Of a stretch of 64,000 bases of DNA, positions 37 to 11,387 are shown in pieces; within the stretch, counting starts at the first letter, position 1, and every line of letters starts with the position of its first letter. Both the position numbers and the translations under genes were made by a program. Under the pieces are notes generated by a model that worked only from the letters and a program-made list of their open reading frames with translations, ran no database searches and was not told the DNA's origin. The DNA is from Apophysomyces variabilis (taxonomy: Eukaryota; Mucoromycota; Mucoromycetes; Mucorales; Mucoraceae). The stretch spans positions 316,453 through 380,452 of the forward strand of contig MZZL01000055.1 in NCBI GenBank assembly GCA_002749535.1, given 5' to 3'.

Positions 37-140
37 TAGTTCTAATAAGGTGAGGTCGAGGCGAAGTGTAGGGTTATTGAAAAAGGAAAAGAGTAGACAA
101 AGTGAAGAGAAGAGATTTTGTCAATGAGATGGAAAGGGCT

Positions 141-148
141 TTTATATA
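141..148 (-). promoter_or_regulatory. TATA-like element for the left-edge gene
   Basis: On the minus strand this reads TATATAAA and lies about 105 bases upstream of the ATG at position 36. The spacing leaves room for a short leader. The match is good, but the gene it would serve is only inferred. Confidence 0.35.
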
Positions 149-306
149 CTAAGTTTAGGCAGTTGCACCCCTAAATTTTCATTTTTTACGTTTTTTGGCA
201 ACTCAGAAGCTCTGCTATTGGTTCATTTTTCTTAGTCTGTCTTTGTCACACCACGAAGTTTAGGGTAAAAAAAGGTATGATGTGGTTTGCTATCGATCTA
301 CTTATA

Positions 307-327
307 CATCATCATCATCATCATCAT
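307..327. repeat. (CAT)7 trinucleotide microsatellite
   Basis: Seven perfect CAT units lie in noncoding AT-rich DNA. This is a simple repeat with no sign of coding use. Confidence 0.9.
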
Positions 328-1390
328 AGCAGATAAAGCACCTACTTAAACCCCTCCCCAAAAGTTGGAGTATAAAATAACTTTGTACTGCAATCAATGC
401 TAATATACGCACACACTTCTTGATCTATATCGTTCACTTAAGGGAAAAGAAATCTGCATAAACTTTGTCCCTGAATCGCACCAACAATGAATATCACAAC
501 ATCCGGAAGTAAAAATAAGAAATAATAGCATCCGAAATGCCATAATCAACATCTGATTCTCAGGAGAATACATATGCATCAGTAAAACTAAGCCTATATC
601 ATTCTTTATCTTGTCTCTATCTGGTTCACTTTGTCAACATAACAACATCCCTTCTGGTCATAAGTTGTCAACGTTTGCTCCATATCTGAATCATATGACA
701 AACACCCACTTTAAAATAAACAACCAGGTAGATATATGGTGATTCAGAAATGATGAAAATCATCAAAAAACCGAATCATTTTGCATGATATGATGACAAA
801 AACGAAAAAAAGTCTGTTGTCATACGCAACCACTCGGTCTGGTTAAATGAAATTGTCATAAGAGATTCCCTTGCTTCTGCTTTTACCAAAAACGTGATTG
901 TCGCACCATGCCTCTTCCGATATGGTCCACCTGTTGATGACATGAATAAATGATGCAGAACCAGATAGCCAAATATCACGGGGTGGCATCCATCCAAAAC
1001 GACATCCATAAGAGGACTAATGTTTAATACTATGAGTTCCCAAGGCGACCGAGTAAATTAAGGTTTGGAAAGCCAAAGTAAAACCCTATTCGTTTTTTTA
1101 CTTGTATGGTAAATTGAGGCTATGTCGTTGCTATTTCCTTCGTGGATCAGTACTGTAAACAAGTGCCTGAGCTGTTTGAGCGCTTGTGTTTGGGTACCTC
1201 AATTCCGAGTATTCGAAACAAGCTGACGTTATACCAAATACAACTTCCCAACCAATAGCAAAGAATATTTGCTTGTTTCACGCTTTATTTATGATGCAAG
1301 TGTCTCGTAAAATCAAAACAAATAGTCAGTAATCGAAATAACTTGGTGAACGCTTAACCATGCAATAGTCTGTATGGCCGAATTTATTCA
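328..1390. other. Intergenic DNA without a supported gene
   Basis: Only short chance frames occur on both strands. No recognisable domain, RNA gene or repeat beyond the adjacent CAT microsatellite was seen. Confidence 0.6.
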
Positions 1391-2238
1391 ATGGTTTTCT
1401 TTAACATTGAGCCGCGTCGCATCTATCTTTTGCTTCCCCGCCTCCTTGTGTTTGTCACATATGCATTAGCCCTATACTAAAGGAGGAGGATGAGCTCTGA
1501 CTCTGCTTGCTTGAAACGTGCCGAGAGAATCGCCCTAACCATTACTAAACTTCGTACTTCTTTTGCATGGCGATCCTTAAGAGCTTCGCTGTTATTACTC
1601 TACGCACTATTCTCCTGCCATGGTTGCTAACAACGAGAAATCGCAACTCTTCTTACTGGCTAACTTCCTTGCACTGTTGCATGGTCTTTCCACACGCTTG
1701 TTCGCCCATGGAGTCCTTATGTTTACTCCTGCTGTTAGCTGCGATCTAAGCATAGTCTGACGCGAGATAAAAGAAAAATAGGCTCATGCGAAGCATTGAT
1801 GAATGTGTTGTATGAGAGCTTAATGCGTGGTTCCGAGTGAATTCCGCATAGTGAACCGTCGAAGATATTTACGGATCGCTATATTCAAACTCATGACCCG
1901 TATTGGTTTGCTTGGTTATCATCCTGGTCTTCCCTCTCATTGTTTTGACGTTGCACTGCCTGTCTTTTGTAATGCTTTCTTTATGTTGCGCTGCACGGGC
2001 GAACGTAACAACCCTTTGAGTCTTGCAGTGGCGTGAAGACGCCCCTGCACCTGATGGCATAGATCATCACACGTTCCTATGGGGAAAATTTTATGTGGGG
2101 CTTATGAGGGACATTAGTGATATCGATCAGTGGCATAACAAGTTTAATAAAGAAAAACTGAAATTAAAACAGAAGTTGGAACTGATAAATGATGGTTTTG
2201 TCGCTGTACAGCACACAGACTTCCTTTTGATGGGGTAA
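1391..2238 (+). pseudogene. Possible decayed or unresolved membrane-protein gene
   Basis: One plus-strand frame from 1391 reads like protein over long stretches, including an arginine/leucine-rich start and segments rich in hydrophobic residues, but it is broken by several stops (near 1478, 1627 and 1770). A second frame near 1905-2020 gives a strongly hydrophobic run. A final open piece (2035-2236) follows a good acceptor (TTGCAG) and ends at a perfect GTAAGT donor at 2237, so it looks like an exon. The pieces do not join into one frame with introns of normal size. It is either a pseudogene or a gene whose structure I could not solve. No family is recognised. Confidence 0.25.
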
Positions 2239-2414
2239 GTGATCGGCAATATGCAAACTTTTTCTTTATTATTGAACATGCGAAAAAAGTCATGAAAATC
2301 AAAAACAATTATTAATAAAAGAGAAAGAAAGGTATGGATAAGACAAAGGAGAGAGAGAAAGAGAGCGAAGAGCAATTAGAGTGCATGATAAGGGGAGAAA
2401 GAAGAATGGGACAC

Positions 2415-3535
2415 TTAGTTGGTCTTGAACAGAGCACGGAAATGATCGCCTATGGACGAGAAGGGTTAGGACAAATAGTTGTTAAGGCTAACGAACTGAT
2501 CTTACCCAAGGCCACCATACAAAGTGTCTGCCACATGCCAAGACCGACTCGTGGCAAAACACCTCTGTAAAATCCACCGATACCGTTGTTTTGGTAGATC
2601 CATTTGGTAGCTTTCATAATCGTCATGTTTTCGGGACGACCAGCAGCTTTGACCTGACTCTGCATCTCTACTCGAATCACTTCGATAGGTTGGTTCCAGC
2701 AAGACAGGGCACCACCGATCATTGACGCCAGCGCTTTGTCGATAGCTGTTGCCTTCTCCTTTACTCCCGGTCCCTCTCCATACCTTGCCTTGATGATGCT
2801 TTCTTGTACAAAACGCGTGATCCCGAACCGTGATGCCCAGTTCGTACACTGTCTGACAGCCACAGCGTTCACACCTTTGTTGATACCAGCAATACCTTCT
2901 TTCCTGAAAATATCGGCGGCAATCTTAAACGTAGATTGCTTTACTCCCGACTTGTGTCGCGTCACCTCGACTGTCTTCATAAATGTACAGAAACCCATGG
3001 TTGTGTAAGCTTGTGCGATACCGCCTCCCATACCGCCAGCAATCCCGCCCTGAATTTTTTTAAGATACCATCAGATTAGCTTTTGTTACACAAGACGATC
3101 GCATATGAAACCAGAAAGCAGAAAGAAAAGAAATAACATACCAGAAAAGGTGAAGCACCAGCCAGTCGTGCTCGATACTCAAATTCAGAGGCAGTGAACA
3201 ACAAGACAGCGCCTTTGGTACTTGCTTCGATCCAGGCCCATGGGATCAAACCTTGATAAAAGCCGAAAAGACCTCCGCGGCTGTAGATGGTTGCCATCGC
3301 CTGAGCAAACGATTGGCCTCGGTTGGCGGCCAACTGCGTCTTAATCACTTCAAATGGTTGACCTAGTGTGGAGACTTCGAACAGATTCAAGGCTATGTTT
3401 TTTCGTATTCTTAGTTAGAAGATCGACGAGATACGGTTGAAACTTACTGGCCCCCAGCAATAGGTTGGTATAGGAGATTGGCTTCTTCTTAAGCGGCGCG
3501 TTAGGATCCACGGGAGCAGTATCAATGGGAGCCAT
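2415..3535 (-). CDS. YHM2: Mitochondrial citrate/oxoglutarate carrier, Yhm2-like
   Basis: Member of the mitochondrial carrier (SLC25) family in the inner membrane. By homology to yeast Yhm2 it should exchange citrate for 2-oxoglutarate, supplying cytosolic citrate and reducing power. Four exons (3448-3535, 3142-3392, 2506-3049, 2415-2449) join in frame to 305 residues, close to the 314 of yeast Yhm2. Family-specific stretches are present: [17 protein letters not shown] after helix 1, [36 protein letters not shown] and [14 protein letters not shown], with the carrier-type PxE/D motifs. The last exon is short: reading through the third donor would give an unrelated tail, while splicing 2506 to 2449 restores a Yhm2-like end ([11 protein letters not shown]). 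There is no cleavable presequence, as is usual for carriers. Confidence 0.93.
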
Positions 3536-4782
3536 GAGGAGAGAAGGAGAAAGAGAAAGAAAGAGAAAGAGAGGATAGGTTGTGGAAGGAAAAGCAAGAA
3601 AAAGCGCAGGGCCAATTTAAATGGAGGGTTCGTTGGGCGAACCCAATGTGTCAAAGTTCCCCCGTTGGGGAGTTGACCGCGGAGACAGTCACACCTCGTC
3701 GCTGCTTTTGGTCGGCACCTGTTCCCAAAGTGGGAAGGCAGCCGAGAGGAAATCGCGAGTGGTTGTTGAGTTGACCCCAAATCCTGCGTGAACCTGGAAT
3801 CTCATTGGCCTTGACAAGTGTTGGCTCACTTTTCTCTGCTAAAAATGGTACCGGGAAGACCCGCGGTTTTTCCCTTTAGCACTTTGGCTCTTCATTTCCC
3901 GCTATCGCCTATCGATCTAAAGTTCCCCTCGTTCTCGTATTCGGAGCAAAGAAAGAAAGAAGAAGAAGAAAAGGAAATAAAGCCTTACGGACCTGCCATC
4001 CATCCCATAGGTTAAGAAAGCAACGCATTCACCCTGCCCCAGGGTCTGTGCGCAGGACAACTCGTCGACCAGGAAACCACACATTGCATGCTATGGCACT
4101 GCAGCCTTCTCTTTTTTTCTTGTGGGTGCAAAATAATAGGTCATGTGTATGCTTGTCAACGAAAAGAAAGCATCTATGAAGAAGATGCTGCAGAGAATCT
4201 AGGTTGTCCACGTCCCAGGAACAGTCTCTTTCTTTGGACAGAATCCTAATCTTCCAAACTTCTATCGTGCGGACGACTAATCGCAGCACATAGAAACCAA
4301 ACAAGAACCTGGATTTGATAAACAACGCGTTATGCAACGTGATCTTGCCTCTCGACAGACTGCCGATCCGTTCGCACTACCTATTTGATCAATGTTGTAC
4401 AAACACCGTTATCTATTGTCAGCTTGCCTACGAAAAACACCTGCCATTCTCTCTCTTTGCCTGTACGACACTATCCACGATTAAGACATTTGACCTCGTT
4501 CACCCATCCGTGGATGATGCAAGAAGGCGGTAGATTGTGCAATAACTCAGCTGATGGTTACATCAATCGATTTTTCCTTTTGGACGCTTTTGAATGGTCC
4601 TAATGCATATATCACGTATAAAGCAAATCAGAAACATACCTATCAGAACTGTATAGTTTATCGCCAGAGACAGACAGAAAATGCACTGGATAATGTACAT
4701 AAGAAATAGAATCATCTTTTAACCCTGTCGAAAGAAGATCATACATGATGTAACTTTGTATTACCATTTATTGAACCGCTTC
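3536..4782. other. Intergenic region upstream of the carrier gene
   Basis: It holds the presumed carrier promoter and a GA/TC-rich tract just upstream of its start codon (3536-3575). No credible gene was seen on either strand. Confidence 0.6.
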
Positions 4783-4818
4783 TTACGCTACCATAAACAA
4801 ATTTTGCGTCCTTGAAAG
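4783..4818 (+). repeat. Dispersed repeat, copy 1
   Basis: A 36-nt segment beginning TTACGCTAC and containing AAATTTTGCGTCC. It matches the segment at 38,794-38,829 with only about five differences. Its length and form suit a worn end of a DNA transposon, but the partner end was not found here. Confidence 0.6.
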
Positions 4819-6004
4819 GACCTTATTTGCTTTGAAAACGTAACGCAGACGCGTCGTTAGTGAATTAGTTATGCGGAATATATCTTAAATGTACATTGAT
4901 CCAATGAGTCAAAACTTAGACAGATATCATAAAAAATGCATTAATAAGTACACGGAAATGACGTTTGCTATCTTTGACTAAGCCGCCAAAAGTAATCTCT
5001 GTGCATACACAGGGGAACTACGGCGCATCCAATCACTGATGCTCACCAGTATGGAGAAAGCTGTGGCAGGCAAAAAAGAAAAGATATGTTGTCAGTATGC
5101 AGGCGTTCATTGAATAAAGGTTACTACATGCTTGGACGCCATATCCCCACCGAGGATATACGTACTCCGCTAGGAGGCGCTGCTGCTCATCCTGGGGCGA
5201 CAGAAGAAGAAAAACGAGGGAGCAAAAAAAAAAGGGGGGGAATAACTGACGTACAAACACTAAAAGCAGCTTGACCGCATCTACCATGAAAAGAATGCGA
5301 AGAAAATGAAGTAGAACTTAGGTCAAAAAGAGCATAATGCGTGTTGATAAGGATCACCCACAGCAAAGTGAATAAGCAAGTCCTAAGAAGAGGAAGATGA
5401 CAAGCACTGCAGACGTGTCTACGATTAGATCAATCTGACAACACAGTCATTGTGCTTTACCCAAGACGATCATGGGATACCAAGAACTAGACTCTTCAAG
5501 AACGGATAATAGCAGCACAAAAGCCTCGAGCAACCAATATGAGAATTGAAAGTGATGTTGCTCCTACAGTGAAAATGCCATCTAGATGAGATATATGGGA
5601 CTTGAGCCAAACAAATAGATTTAGACGTGCGCAGGGACACATATAGCCAAAAGCTCCTTTGCTGAACCATCAGCGAGGCGCGTATAATGGTACATTATAC
5701 AGACCGAACAAAAACATGGAATGCATGCAAATAGAGATACTCTCATGGAAGTATCACTTATCGTCACGCTTAGATGCATATTCTGAGAGGACGTGTATTC
5801 GTCCTGACTCCTGAAGTATGTCTGGAAAACTGAATGCAGTTTCCGCTGTCGTGTACTTGGATTCTATGCAGTTGTAGACATGCAAATCATTACTTTGGAC
5901 GTATTAACAAGTCTCTTCGGCTCGTTCCACTGCGTCGGATAGATCATAATCGCTTAGTAACACTGGCAAAGTCATGTGGATTTCACTCACCTATGCGAAC
6001 TGAG
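4819..6004. other. Intergenic DNA downstream of the Fanzor relic
   Basis: No supported gene. A small perfect inverted repeat (GTCCTT, then GAAAGGAC) occurs at its left end. If the Fanzor belonged to a transposon, its 3' flank and guide-RNA region would lie here, but I could not identify terminal repeats by eye. Confidence 0.5.
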
Positions 6005-9000
6005 TCACTTGCATGCCTTGCTTGGGGTTTGTCCCGGCAATTGGTTTTTTCTTTGAAAAAGTGATGGTCGGTTATTGTTATTGAGAGCCATATGCTCTGC
6101 AATACGTCTAATATTTCTGCTGGCGTTACAATCGCGATCCCAAACCGTTTTGCATTGCTCGCAGTGCACGACGGCATGCAACGACTGACCCAGCGATCCT
6201 TTTACGTTACGCAGTTTCTTTGCTCCACAGCCAGAACAAATTTTGGACGTTTTGAACTCGTCAACGTCTACGACCTTGCATCGTCCTCTTGCTTTATTCT
6301 CTTTAATCTTTCTTCTAATGATGTTGGAAATTCCTGCTCGTATGCCTTGCAAAGTGCTATTGAACATGGCACTTCCAAAAGCAAACAGTGGCTTTCTTTT
6401 CGTCGGATGCGGCGTAGCCTTTGACCATTCATTTCTACTATCATAGTCAATCTTTTAAATTATCTGTTGACTTTTACCTAGCAAATGTATTCGGCAGCCT
6501 TCGACAACTGGTTCTACTTCTATTTTCCAGGGAAGAGTCCAAACGACGACGACTTGTCCATGTCAGCGACAAAGCATCTATTTTCACATTTTAACTCTTA
6601 CTTCGGTTCAGTATCCGAAATTTCCGTTCGCTTAACTGTTCCTGCCTCGGTCTTGTTTTGTTGTTTCCGGCGTTTCTTCTTTGCTTACGATGTCTTCTCC
6701 GATTTCTGGTATTTTTTGTAGGATATTTACTGCCACCGGATATTAAACGTTCCGCAAACTCGTCACTAGCCTGTTGGCGACCAATATGTCTTCAATAAGC
6801 GGTACATAAAGTTAATGATGCACATAGAATGACGATTTTAAGCTTACCGCCAAAAACCGGAGGCATGCATACCTTCTGTCGTAGTATTGGTGTTATGTCG
6901 ACATGTGCAACAATAAAAAGCGAGCATACCGATCGAACTGAGATATACTGGCCGTCTTTACGCTAGGCATATCTTTTTCGATCTGCTGGATCTTAGCCTT
7001 TTCGTTTTTCATACGGACCATGATTGCTTTGCTTGCATTGTAATGGGCGAGGTGGTAAAATTCTTTCGTGGATGATGATATGATTTCATGGCTATATTTC
7101 TCATGACCATTGCTGGCGACATACGCATCCGTTATCCCAGGATTTACGCCTATCAAGTTAAGGCCATGCAGATCCCCCTGAAAGTCCTTCATAGTCTTTG
7201 CCGACTTCTTATCTTCAGTCAAGTGTTGCCTTTTCCTGGAGAACGTAAACGCTGCTGTGCAACCGTCTGTTGCGAGTGGCCGAAACATTTTCTGGTTTGA
7301 GTTCTTCATTTCATCCAATGATCGTCTTTATGAAATCAAACGCTTCCCAAAACATTTCGTCTTTGTTTGCTCTTTGGCTAACTCCAACCAATGATGCTAA
7401 TGTTTGGTGATCTATTTGGATATATCGCCAGGTAGTTGCCGTTCTGGCATGATTGTAAATAGACGTTCGCTGGAACCTTGGATTTTTGGCATAAAAACCC
7501 CTCTGACCGATTTTCTAGCAGTTTTTGCCAAAACTTTCTGTATGTAAACATAGTCTACTGAAGAAATATCGTCTTTGAGCACTGATCGTATCTCTTTCTC
7601 GAATAAGTTTGGCGCATAAGAGATGTTTGCTTAGCGCAAAGAATTATACATGTGACACCGTTGTCGTTTGCTTTTTCAAGCTATATCCCATTTTTAACAT
7701 GATGATTTCCTCCTTTTTGTTTTGTTACCTTAGGTAAATCTTCGGCTAGAGTACAAATAGCTTTTCGGGTCCTCCCTACCAAGAATGATTTTTTTCGTCT
7801 TGAAAGATTCTTGAAACTCTAATTTTTCTGAAAATTGCGAAATAACCACCCTCGAGAAGGGATCGGCATCGGTTTGCGGACTGGTGTACCACCTAAAGGC
7901 TCGAGGTCCTCAAAGATTTCGTGCAGAGGCCGCACATAGACATGAGATTTAGCCGCCATATCGGTTGATGTGACAGGAACATTTTCAGGACAAATATTGA
8001 CATTCTGCAAGACCGTATTGATTGCGGTCTTGAATTCGTCCCTTGGCACAACTGAGTACGGATAATGCGGTTGTCCCTTTGCCCCAATGTCATAGGCAAA
8101 CTTGGCCAGTTTCTTTATATCTTCCGTTGTGATATCTATCTTGAGCTTTTCCTGCGTTTGCACAAAGTGCGTTAACCTAAAAACATTGACAGGTGTTCTA
8201 CTTGCCAGCTCAACTTGGAGACAGTATTTGATATACTTCTCCATACGTTGACTATAATTTTCGACTACATCATTGGAAGCCGCGACTGCCATTTGAGCAC
8301 ATGTAGACGCGAAACAGTGCATTATATCATCAGATATGTCAACTGACGGTTTATCGTCTTGGCATATCCTTAATTTCGCATATTCCTTGTAGACAGTGTG
8401 CAAGTCTGCGAGAAATTCTGGTTGCTATAGTATTTGCCTTGAGGTGATGTTTCTTCCCAAAATCATTTTTCCGCATGCATAGAAAAAGTCCTGCTGAAAG
8501 CACAGATGCGAAATAGGCTTGCTGTTGGATAATCGCCAAAGGACAAAGCGTGAAGAAAGTAGCTCAGTTTCTTGCGTCAAAGCTAAACCACATTTCATGC
8601 GTGAGAGTTCAGCACAACAAAAAGAGAATACTAACTTCTTATAGATGTCTGTAAGTCTCTTATTCTAAGCCCTATGATTTCGCTGCACACCGCAGCCAAA
8701 CTGATCTTTCTCGTGTACTGTAGGGACGACTCCCCTAATCGTTCTTTGGCATCTTCCGATTTGGATGCGACATGGCTTGGACACAGGCTGCTTGAACGGC
8801 GAGAATGTGGTCGCATTGTCCTTGGCGACGAAATTCTACAGGTCTTGCAGTATTTGTTGGGATCGGTTATATAGACTTTATAGGATTCTTCGATTTTTGC
8901 CGCTTTTTTTCGCCTCGCCTCGGCCTCCTTCTCCTCATCGGTCTTCTTTCTTTTCTTTCGGACAGGTGGAGCTGTAGTTGATTTGCAGACTGTCTTCAGC

Positions 9001-9234
9001 CATTTCATGGTACTCTCTGACACTTGAGAAAGATCCACTTTGGCAAGAGTGTCTAATACAATATCTTAAAATAGTGAATCGCTAGTAAAAGCGATACCTC
9101 CGTTATCGTCTTCATCAGTGTTATGACACTTCTGTTTTCTTACGTCTGCCATTGCCATTAAGAAGACGTTCTTTTACAATGCATTTCGTCATACCTGTTC
9201 TTTTCATTGTTGATTTGCGCTTTTTAGGTGGCAT
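6005..9234 (-). pseudogene. Broken Fanzor gene (eukaryotic TnpB-like RNA-guided nuclease)
   Basis: Fanzors are transposon-linked RNA-guided DNA endonucleases. The N-terminus opens with PPKKRK, a nuclear-localisation-like motif, and two 45-49 nt introns (9146-9194, 9053-9097) keep its frame open. Further in come a basic stretch, a helical region (8540-7820), the pre-RuvC block RYIQIDHQTLASL (about 7430), LATDGCTAAF and RuvC-I at about 7150, the segment before the zinc ribbon ending FAFGSAMF (about 6375), DEFKTSKICSGCG, a second CxxC (HCEQC) and RuvC-III DRDCNASRN (about 6100). Damage: TAG at 8425-8427, TAG at 7819-7821, frameshifts near 7430 and 7320, TAA at 6893-6895, an unresolved break near 6440-6600, and RuvC-I GVNPG where the family has GxDPG. 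An intact copy would be about 900 residues. The family call is from motif recognition and is strong; exact exon limits are not. Confidence 0.82.
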
Positions 9235-11387
9235 CTTCTTGAAACTCGGAAGGAAAAAGAAGAAGCTTAAAGAAGAAAAGTGCAAAAGAAGATTGGAATA
9301 AAAGAAGGAAAACGATCAAACATATATGACAGAATAACTCTGTCATAAATGACTGAATCATTATGATTAAGACCGTAATAAATTGATGTGGGTATCTCTT
9401 CCGTTACCACGGGAAACCTTCTGAGGCTCCTCTGACTGTGATCAATGCCGTTGGATGAATCGCCGTTAAATATTCTCAAAAAAGATTTGATGTGTCGATC
9501 ATTTAACGCACAATTACGCTGCTCGTAATTGTTCTCCTTATCTATTATATAATTGCTCAGGTAGCTATGTTTACCTTTGAGTCTGGTTCGTTCTTGTGAC
9601 AACAGTGGTCAACGAAATCTCCATGTCCAGTAGGTAGAGTGATTGCTTGTATTAAGATATTCATATTTCACAGGTTCATGTTATCTTGATTAACGAAGGA
9701 ATAAGTATTCAAATGTCATTGATCGCAGCGACGCAGTTATACATATCAGAGGCGAAATGGATGACCTATGCGTTGGAAACGCTACCAAGCAACGTGGCAG
9801 AATAGTAAGACAACATTTATTGGCTCACCGAGAATGGTTAGTGCCTAAGCAAGTTAGATAATGTATTATGAAGACGAAGCAAAAACATGCGAAGTAAGTG
9901 TCTTTCAAGCAAAGTCAAAATGGCGCGATAATTTCTCAAAGGACATTTCGCAGTTTGACTATTTCCTAAGAAATCGAAACGAGATTACCCAGCAAATACA
10001 TCCCAATAGTATAGCAACGACTATTCAGATTAATGCCTGTTTTTCGGCCTCTTCACTGCTTGTTAGGTATCCGGAGAAACAAAATAGCTTTCTCTCACAT
10101 CAAAGTTTCCTGTCACGGCTTTTACGAATAAAGACACCGTTGTCTAAGGATGGTCAGCCTTGGCCCGGCTCGCTTCGCAGCGCGCCCGCCTTCCCCCTCC
10201 CACACCCCATCATCCCACCGCACCCACCTCCCATACCCATCCACCGCAGCCCCCCAATCGCGCCACCCAGCCATTTGGTGTCAGGTATAGGTTCGTTAGA
10301 CAGATATTACAGCAACGGTGAAAGTAATTTTTGAAGCTACTTACGCAGCTTCTCCTGGCCTAAGTACGAAAAGCTATTCTCAGTGCTTGAAGAGACAATT
10401 GTGTCAGAGGATGATATGGAAACAATTGTTGAAAACCTATTCCAAGTGCATGAAGAGACTATTGGCCGGCTGTTATTGTTATTTGTAAAGCTGTATACAA
10501 TATTCTCAGGATAGTACGGACAGAAACAACTCATAATATATAAATACGCCTTGAAGTAGAAAGGAGCGCAAGAGCTCCCTTTTTATAACCATGAGATGAT
10601 TGTTTTAAGTGTGGTGGTGACTATGTTTTTGATTGTAAAACGTTGCAATGATCACTCATCTTTCTGTTTTGGTGTATTGAGTAACCTTTTCCTATATTGA
10701 TGGATGAGGGTAATGCAGCCCAGTTTTTTTTTTGGTAGAAAACAGTGGCTTCCCTAATATATTCGCTAATCTTCAAATATGGAAATGGGTTTGATATACA
10801 ACGCATTGCTTCCCTTTCAAATACGCTGTTTACATGATTTGATGACAACAGTTTTCAGTAGTTATCACTACTTACATGTTTCCTTAACCAAACTGGTACG
10901 GAATGAAGAAAGATGTATCCCATTTTGCAGATCTCTTTGTATTCGTTCCCAATGCCAAGTAACTGATCATACAGGCCTTTGTATCCAAACATCTATACTA
11001 TATGGAAACGATAAAGCGACCTTGGTAAACCGATCTCGGCTGAAAGCAGAGTTTGTGTGCGTGACATTCTCACCTGTTCTATTAAGAGACCACTGCAATC
11101 ATGACAGAAAACTATGAGTATTTTATTGGCTGCAAACTGAGACTCAAGCGTGCGAGAGCCAAATGACACTGAGAATGGGAAATACCAAAGGTATTTTTAA
11201 GGTATATTTTTGGAGGGAAACGCCCAAGTCCCGGATGAGTCTTTCGGACAAAAATACGTGCTTTTTCTAATTCGCTCAGATTCTCAGTTGTTCAACCCCC
11301 TTCAGGAGGACTTGTGCTTTAGGCATTACATTAGTATGTGTATGGCATTGCTCGATGAGTTTATACTACTTTATACTGTATAGCTAG
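9235..11387. other. Intergenic DNA with a cytosine-rich segment
   Basis: No recognised gene. A frame at 9861-10334 encodes a proline-rich tail, but it merely translates the C-rich segment at 10,155-10,275 and has no domain. The region may be old transposon DNA flanking the Fanzor relic. Confidence 0.5.
10193..10216 (-). other. G-quadruplex motif on the minus strand
   Basis: Four C-runs (5, 3, 4 and 3 bases) separated by 1-5 bases on the plus strand give a canonical four-run G-quadruplex pattern on the minus strand, in otherwise AT-rich DNA. Formation in the cell is not shown. Confidence 0.6.

Follow-up and report, generated by a model that had tools for sequence, protein, structure and literature searches.

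A broken Fanzor gene and its decayed sister copies in the genome of Apophysomyces variabilis

The minus strand of the window, a 64,000-nucleotide stretch of a chromosome of the fungus Apophysomyces variabilis, carries at positions 6005-9234 a broken gene for a Fanzor, the eukaryotic form of TnpB. Fanzors are the eukaryotic cousins of CRISPR-type DNA cutters. Our strong confidence goes to the reading that the locus was once a multi-exon Fanzor gene, now dead, on a transposon of about 5 kb that multiplied in one burst and whose copies then decayed neutrally. In the corresponding scenario the ancestral copy would have used about six exons to code for a TnpB/Fanzor nuclease (RuvC with a TNB zinc ribbon), presumably RNA-guided. 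A single burst brought near-full copies to no fewer than 11 places of this Mucorales genome, each copy then decaying neutrally by some 2-3.6% per lineage. The window copy has lost its 5' end, its reading frame at nine places and the RuvC-I Asp; some copies, already broken, may have been mobilised in trans. The family, the copy number, the lesions, the ends and the past selection rest on direct observation, whereas introns, RNA guidance and mobilisation in trans are deductions. The novelty resides in a Fanzor family unseen in protein databases; the kind of element was already known. Its value is that of a fossil record that documents the propagation and the death of such elements. From insertions that form a dated set and stem from one burst, one can examine whether spread requires the nuclease in cis, what the element has for ends and targets, and which of the shared breaks are introns; a recently mobile Fanzor family of the same genome serves as a comparison for the dead one.

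The gene and its motifs

The initial annotation, made from the letters of the sequence, had assigned the minus strand to the Fanzor/TnpB family. Profile searches bear this out. The PF07282 zinc ribbon matches the last piece of the gene (6005-6454) with an E-value of 1.6e-13, at 51 bits against a cut-off of 26.3. When the same profile was run on the six frames of the host genome (126 contigs, 38.7 Mb), the window locus ranked first among the 73 matches listed; as the scoring covered 150 of 164 candidates, 73 is a lower bound. The NCBIfam guided_TnpB profile gives 2.7e-8 for the window gene, under that profile's cut-off. A search of the rest of the genome retrieved ten further near-full DNA copies, and the window Fanzor is therefore not a chance reading.

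Between five junctions, the column majority of the copies yields a short first exon followed by frames of 144, 324, 282, 64 and 149 amino acids, all on the minus strand. The predicted exon 1 (9144..9234) opens at 9234 with MPPKKRK, the start that had been described as nuclear-localisation-like, a likeness by resemblance only; its ATG is found in 10 of the 11 near-full copies, with a gap in the codon of the eleventh. Predicted exon 2 (8650..9065) contains at 8769-8849 a C-x2-C...H-x-R...C-x3-H motif that is also present in loci L090, L052 and, differently placed, L004. This is perhaps a small zinc finger, and a Pfam scan of the exon matched no zinc-finger family. Predicted exon 3 (7729..8655), whose frame is open in the copy on contig C94, is 34.6% identical to L090. 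Predicted exon 4 (6840..7680) holds the RuvC-I block and is 34.8% identical to the diverged locus L007; its frame is obtained with one column set aside, absent in four copies and in both outgroups. Predicted exon 5 (6600..6791) is 68.6% identical to L007 over 35 amino acids. The same exon resembles DUF7302 (PF23976) at 6.1e-4, 20.5 bits, under the cut-off of 24.9, and Pfam hits of exons 2-4, weak at E 0.01-0.1, were put down to chance. Predicted exon 6 (6005..6454) combines the zinc ribbon and RuvC-III; an AlphaFold2 model of it has a pLDDT of 37 and is useless.

Exon 6 of the window copy displays, in order, DEFKTS, CSGC, HCEQC and WDRDCNAS. The C4 ribbon (CSGC...HCEQC, 6152-6238), recognised by PF07282, by motif reading and by alignment, and the RuvC-III motif DRDCNAS (6119-6139), with an RD invariant across seven aligned sequences, are present as announced. 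Directly before the ribbon, the Glu of DEFKTS (6257..6259) occupies the position of E541, named as catalytic in SpuFz1 (PMC11423790). In the seven-sequence alignment the other distinct loci read DEYNTS or DEYKTS in four cases out of five and DKY in one; in another alignment, SpuFz1 reads DEYKTS. As for the RuvC-I region, the announced block is present, but the catalytic residue is not: the window reads GVNPG (7136..7150), with Asn in place of Asp, and is alone in this among the 11 near-full copies, the 10 others keeping DPG. The motif proposed for the TnpB/Fanzor superfamily, D-X(125,275)-[TS][TS]-X2-C4-X(5,50)-RD (Bao and Jurka, PMC3627910), fits the window family, with about 229 residues after the D (a hand count across the predicted exons), TS before C4 and five residues to RD; the window copy keeps this spacing, but has Asn for the first Asp.

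Family membership suggests that the ancestral nuclease was guided by an OMEGA-type RNA, the scaffold of which would be expected in the 3' noncoding end of the element (5906..6004, minus strand). These 99 nucleotides, 71-82% identical in L031, L032 and L035, are about as conserved between diverged loci as coding positions, as an omega RNA would be. A search in them for a covarying fold found none (three pairs, no compensatory change), the fold of one copy has a z-score of -1.24, and Rfam gave no match above gathering.

The element, its copies and their spread

The initial annotation delimited a feature at 6005..9234. The gene is there, but the mobile unit is longer, running on the minus strand from about 5906 to 10794, with some 1.5 kb upstream of the gene. 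These limits come from blastn with the full copy on C94 (5026 bp, from ACATTATACTAAAG to GAGACTTGTT), of which positions 140-5026 match at 92%; the window copy thus lacks the first 139 bp or so on the 5' side. The 5' noncoding part (9235..10794) is common to copies and holds no long conserved frame. Past activity of a mobile element, already proposed, is now documented by DNA searches of the host genome: 11 near-full copies, the window included, are 92.7-95.7% identical pairwise and spread over ten contigs of the 38.7-Mb genome. All 11 share the 3' end. On the 5' side, the copies on C94, C68 and C71 start at base 1 of the full copy and that on C78 at base 2, C11b retains its initial bases and misses a few hundred directly after them, and the remaining ones are truncated or interrupted at differing places. 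The copy on C87 is in two parts, separated by about 5.7 kb (C87:1158609-1164293), as if something had been inserted.

No target duplication was detected in the flanks of the 11 copies, where the longest shared word is of 4-7 bases, against up to 10 in mismatched pairs. Five of the 11 copies have a recognisable 5' end; for the rest the comparison is weak. Little weight attaches to C87, for which the edge of its interruption served as left limit, and to several other copies truncated in 5'. The ends of the C94 copy gave no terminal inverted repeat above chance (score 5, equalled in 413 of 500 shuffles). A search for tyrosine recombinases (PF00589) found 18 matches in the genome, none tied to the window's element.

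The copies drift neutrally. Relative to the column majority, codon positions 1, 2 and 3 have diverged evenly, by 3.1, 2.9 and 3.0% in exon 3 and 3.0, 3.2 and 3.2% in exon 4; exons 2, 5 and 6 show 2.0-4.2%, with no third-position excess. By contrast, comparison with the diverged L007/L090 locus counts 231, 162 and 335 differences at the three positions over 520 codon comparisons (about 15 codons of exon 6, where two matches overlap, being counted twice). Against the paralog C71b, exons 3 and 4 together give 104, 91 and 134. As a counterpoint, exon 6 has no third-position excess against C71b (31/28/28) or against C112 (17/25/16). The bias relative to the diverged locus, together with the evenness among copies, indicates that the protein was under selection before the burst and that the copies have been drifting since. 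In the tree of copies, terminal branches measure 2.1-3.6%, that of the window 2.5%. Among copies, the changes C>T and G>A have about double the frequency of A>G and T>C. Repeat-induced mutation was considered as the cause of the stops and rejected, C>T being highest at CpG (4.7%) and not at CpA (2.8%).

Every one of the 11 near-full copies is broken, with 6-14 lesions each, adding up to 92 distinct lesions, 80 of them private and 12 shared. The shared ones bear on how the element spread. C71, C42 and C19 have in common a stop in exon 1 and a stop in exon 2, each produced by a transversion (AAG to TAG, TGT to TGA), and these three copies group together with support of 97 and 75. Being five codons in, the first stop could be bypassed by a later ATG; the second could not. 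Since the three share two stops and form a group, copies that were already broken probably kept spreading. C83 and C87, grouped at a support of 98, have one frameshift in common, and a one-base insertion in exon 4 is found in seven copies while absent from the window, C68, C11b, C42 and both paralogs. Further shared lesions conflict with the tree, such as a stop at a CGA codon in C78, C11b and C87 and another stop in C68 and C19; this discordance means that recurrence or gene conversion also acts.

It could be that intact source copies alone drove the burst, all shared lesions being recurrent or converted. The discordant stops fit such a course of events, as do the 13 sites that C11a and C11b share, which look like conversion on one contig, and the many frameshifts that sit in short runs. 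The two transversion stops of C71, C42 and C19 and the frameshift of C83 and C87, each coinciding with a well-supported group, fit it poorly, and we consider it rather unlikely, while granting it real weight. That already broken copies went on spreading appears likely, short of proof, from the pattern of lesions. A wider proposal would have the Fanzor lineage keep multiplying after loss of the nuclease frame. Its broken copies, at least C71, C42 and C19 and perhaps the majority bearing the exon 4 frameshift, would have been mobilised in trans by an element whose 3' end is retained and whose 5' end is often lost, with neither terminal inverted repeats nor target duplications. We put this forward as a speculation that is probably wrong as a whole. 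Were the conserved 3' ends still to make omega RNAs, a Fanzor coded elsewhere could obtain guides from such dead copies.

Introns and true damage

The initial annotation counted at least three stops and two frameshifts and read them all as decay. Decay is real, although the tally is different and part of the apparent damage is probably due to five introns, seen as breaks present in every copy. In the 11 copies, no open frame of at least 60 amino acids crosses any of the five junctions. At four of these a GT-AG pair joins the frames, and at the exon 2-3 junction no convincing splice pair was found. The predicted intron at 7681..7728 (minus strand, GTAACA...ATATAG) joins two frames, with GT in 10 of 11 copies and AG in all 13 rows that have letters there. 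The diverged locus L007, although a broken sequence in its own right, shifts frame at the same place as the exon 4-5 and exon 5-6 junctions; at the former of these its donor is other than GT. Breaks common to the copies are read as introns because of the uncrossed junctions, the GT-AG bridges and these frame changes, and the stops located at the junctions are probably intronic.

Could introns account for everything, the window gene being spliced into a working Fanzor? The uncrossed junctions, the four bridges and the two that correspond to frame changes in L007 are what such a view would draw upon. What remains within the predicted exons of the window copy disagrees with it: two in-frame stops and seven frameshifts, distributed as one stop and two frameshifts in exon 3, one stop and four frameshifts in exon 4 and one frameshift in exon 5, with no lesion counted in exon 6. 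Seven of these nine lesions are private to the window copy and already disfavour a working gene; the loss of the RuvC-I Asp in this copy alone, and burst copies devoid of codon bias, do so further. We find a functional locus very improbable, and retain that of a dead copy of a multi-exon gene.

Relatives in the genome and known systems

The initial annotation also expected intact relatives. For the window's own family the expectation fails: no intact member exists among the 11 near-full copies, and the sister locus L007/L090 (on C69), 35-69% identical to the window Fanzor depending on the exon, is interrupted by a stop in exon 5 and has its frame broken in exon 6. Some support comes from another family. 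Six loci, among the matches listed, have a PF07282 frame of 279 amino acids; two copies of this second family (C79:221203-226829 and C95) have long open frames and share 99.5% identity across 5.63 kb, a closeness that points to recent movement. In these copies (L064, L065, L068, L069) GVDPG and MNRD motifs are present, and the family matches Apophysomyces ossiformis proteins at 74-91%. The C79 copy is flanked by a repeat of 11-13 bp with one mismatch by eye, the C95 copy is not, and the ends show a weak inverted similarity (6 of 500 shuffles as good).

In a third family (L002, L004, L006, L008) a GTDPG or GADPG RuvC-I block follows directly downstream of the CxxC...H...C motif and in a different frame, as though the intervening part had been deleted. 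Loci L066 (C92) and L067 (C90) have a 5' region in common with the window's element and no Fanzor frame, and end in ACAACTTGTTAA; the C90 element is flanked on both sides by TTGTTAAAGCACTAA, with a shared word of 13 bp. Their 3' part is an abundant repeat, with at least 51 matches (40 of 81 candidates scored). A retrotransposon-like reading of this repeat was dropped, since ten copies checked at their ends gave no target duplication and a longer element includes its left part.

That the zinc-ribbon match might betray an old bacterial or viral TnpB contaminating the assembly, as the best matches of the C-terminal profile, to TnpB-type chains, might suggest, is an idea with next to no probability, in view of copies on ten contigs of a 38.7-Mb genome, of the nearest annotated neighbour, a mitochondrial carrier gene (Mito_carr, 3.6e-20), of the predicted introns and of the proteins of A. 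ossiformis that match the second family.

Several of the database searches speak against the Fanzor reading. In a set of 5.8 billion proteins, neither the 149-residue exon 6 (4 candidates) nor the joined reading of 980 amino acids (6669 candidates) has a match at E <= 0.001. In the PDB, the joined reading finds no chain at E <= 0.1 and the RuvC-I exon none at E <= 10. The C-terminal profile retrieves TnpB-like chains only, with no Fanzor1 chain at E <= 0.01, and the best single match of exon 6 is TnpB-like L79 (PDB 9b0l, 1.6e-4). The window gene resembles the latter in exon 6 but differs from it by an N-terminal half without database match and by its predicted introns. Length, introns and host suggest Fanzor1 rather than Fanzor2 as the more likely assignment. 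SpuFz1 of Spizellomyces punctatus and PpFz1 of Parasitella parasitica, as described in the accounts we cite, have the same order of RuvC-I Asp (that of the family), Glu, C4 ribbon and RuvC-III Asp (PMC10432273, PMC11423790), whereas the sequence has no significant match to these chains and, in the window copy, the RuvC-I Asp is missing.

The closest parallel by description is with MCi-2 and MCi-5, presented as Fanzor1 elements of Mucor circinelloides (Bao and Jurka, 2013, PMC3627910). According to that description, these are also multi-copy Fanzor elements of the order of 5-7 kb in a Mucorales genome, without recognisable terminal inverted repeats, with a constant gene-bearing 3' part, variable or fuzzy 5' ends and no assigned class. 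MCi-2 is reported there to have target duplications of 11-12 bp, ATAATTNNNN(N), whereas none was detected around the Fanzor-bearing copies of the window family. Finally, the 3' parts of MCi-2 are given as 99% identical (PMC3627910), while the window family is older (92.7-95.7%) and broken in all its near-full copies.
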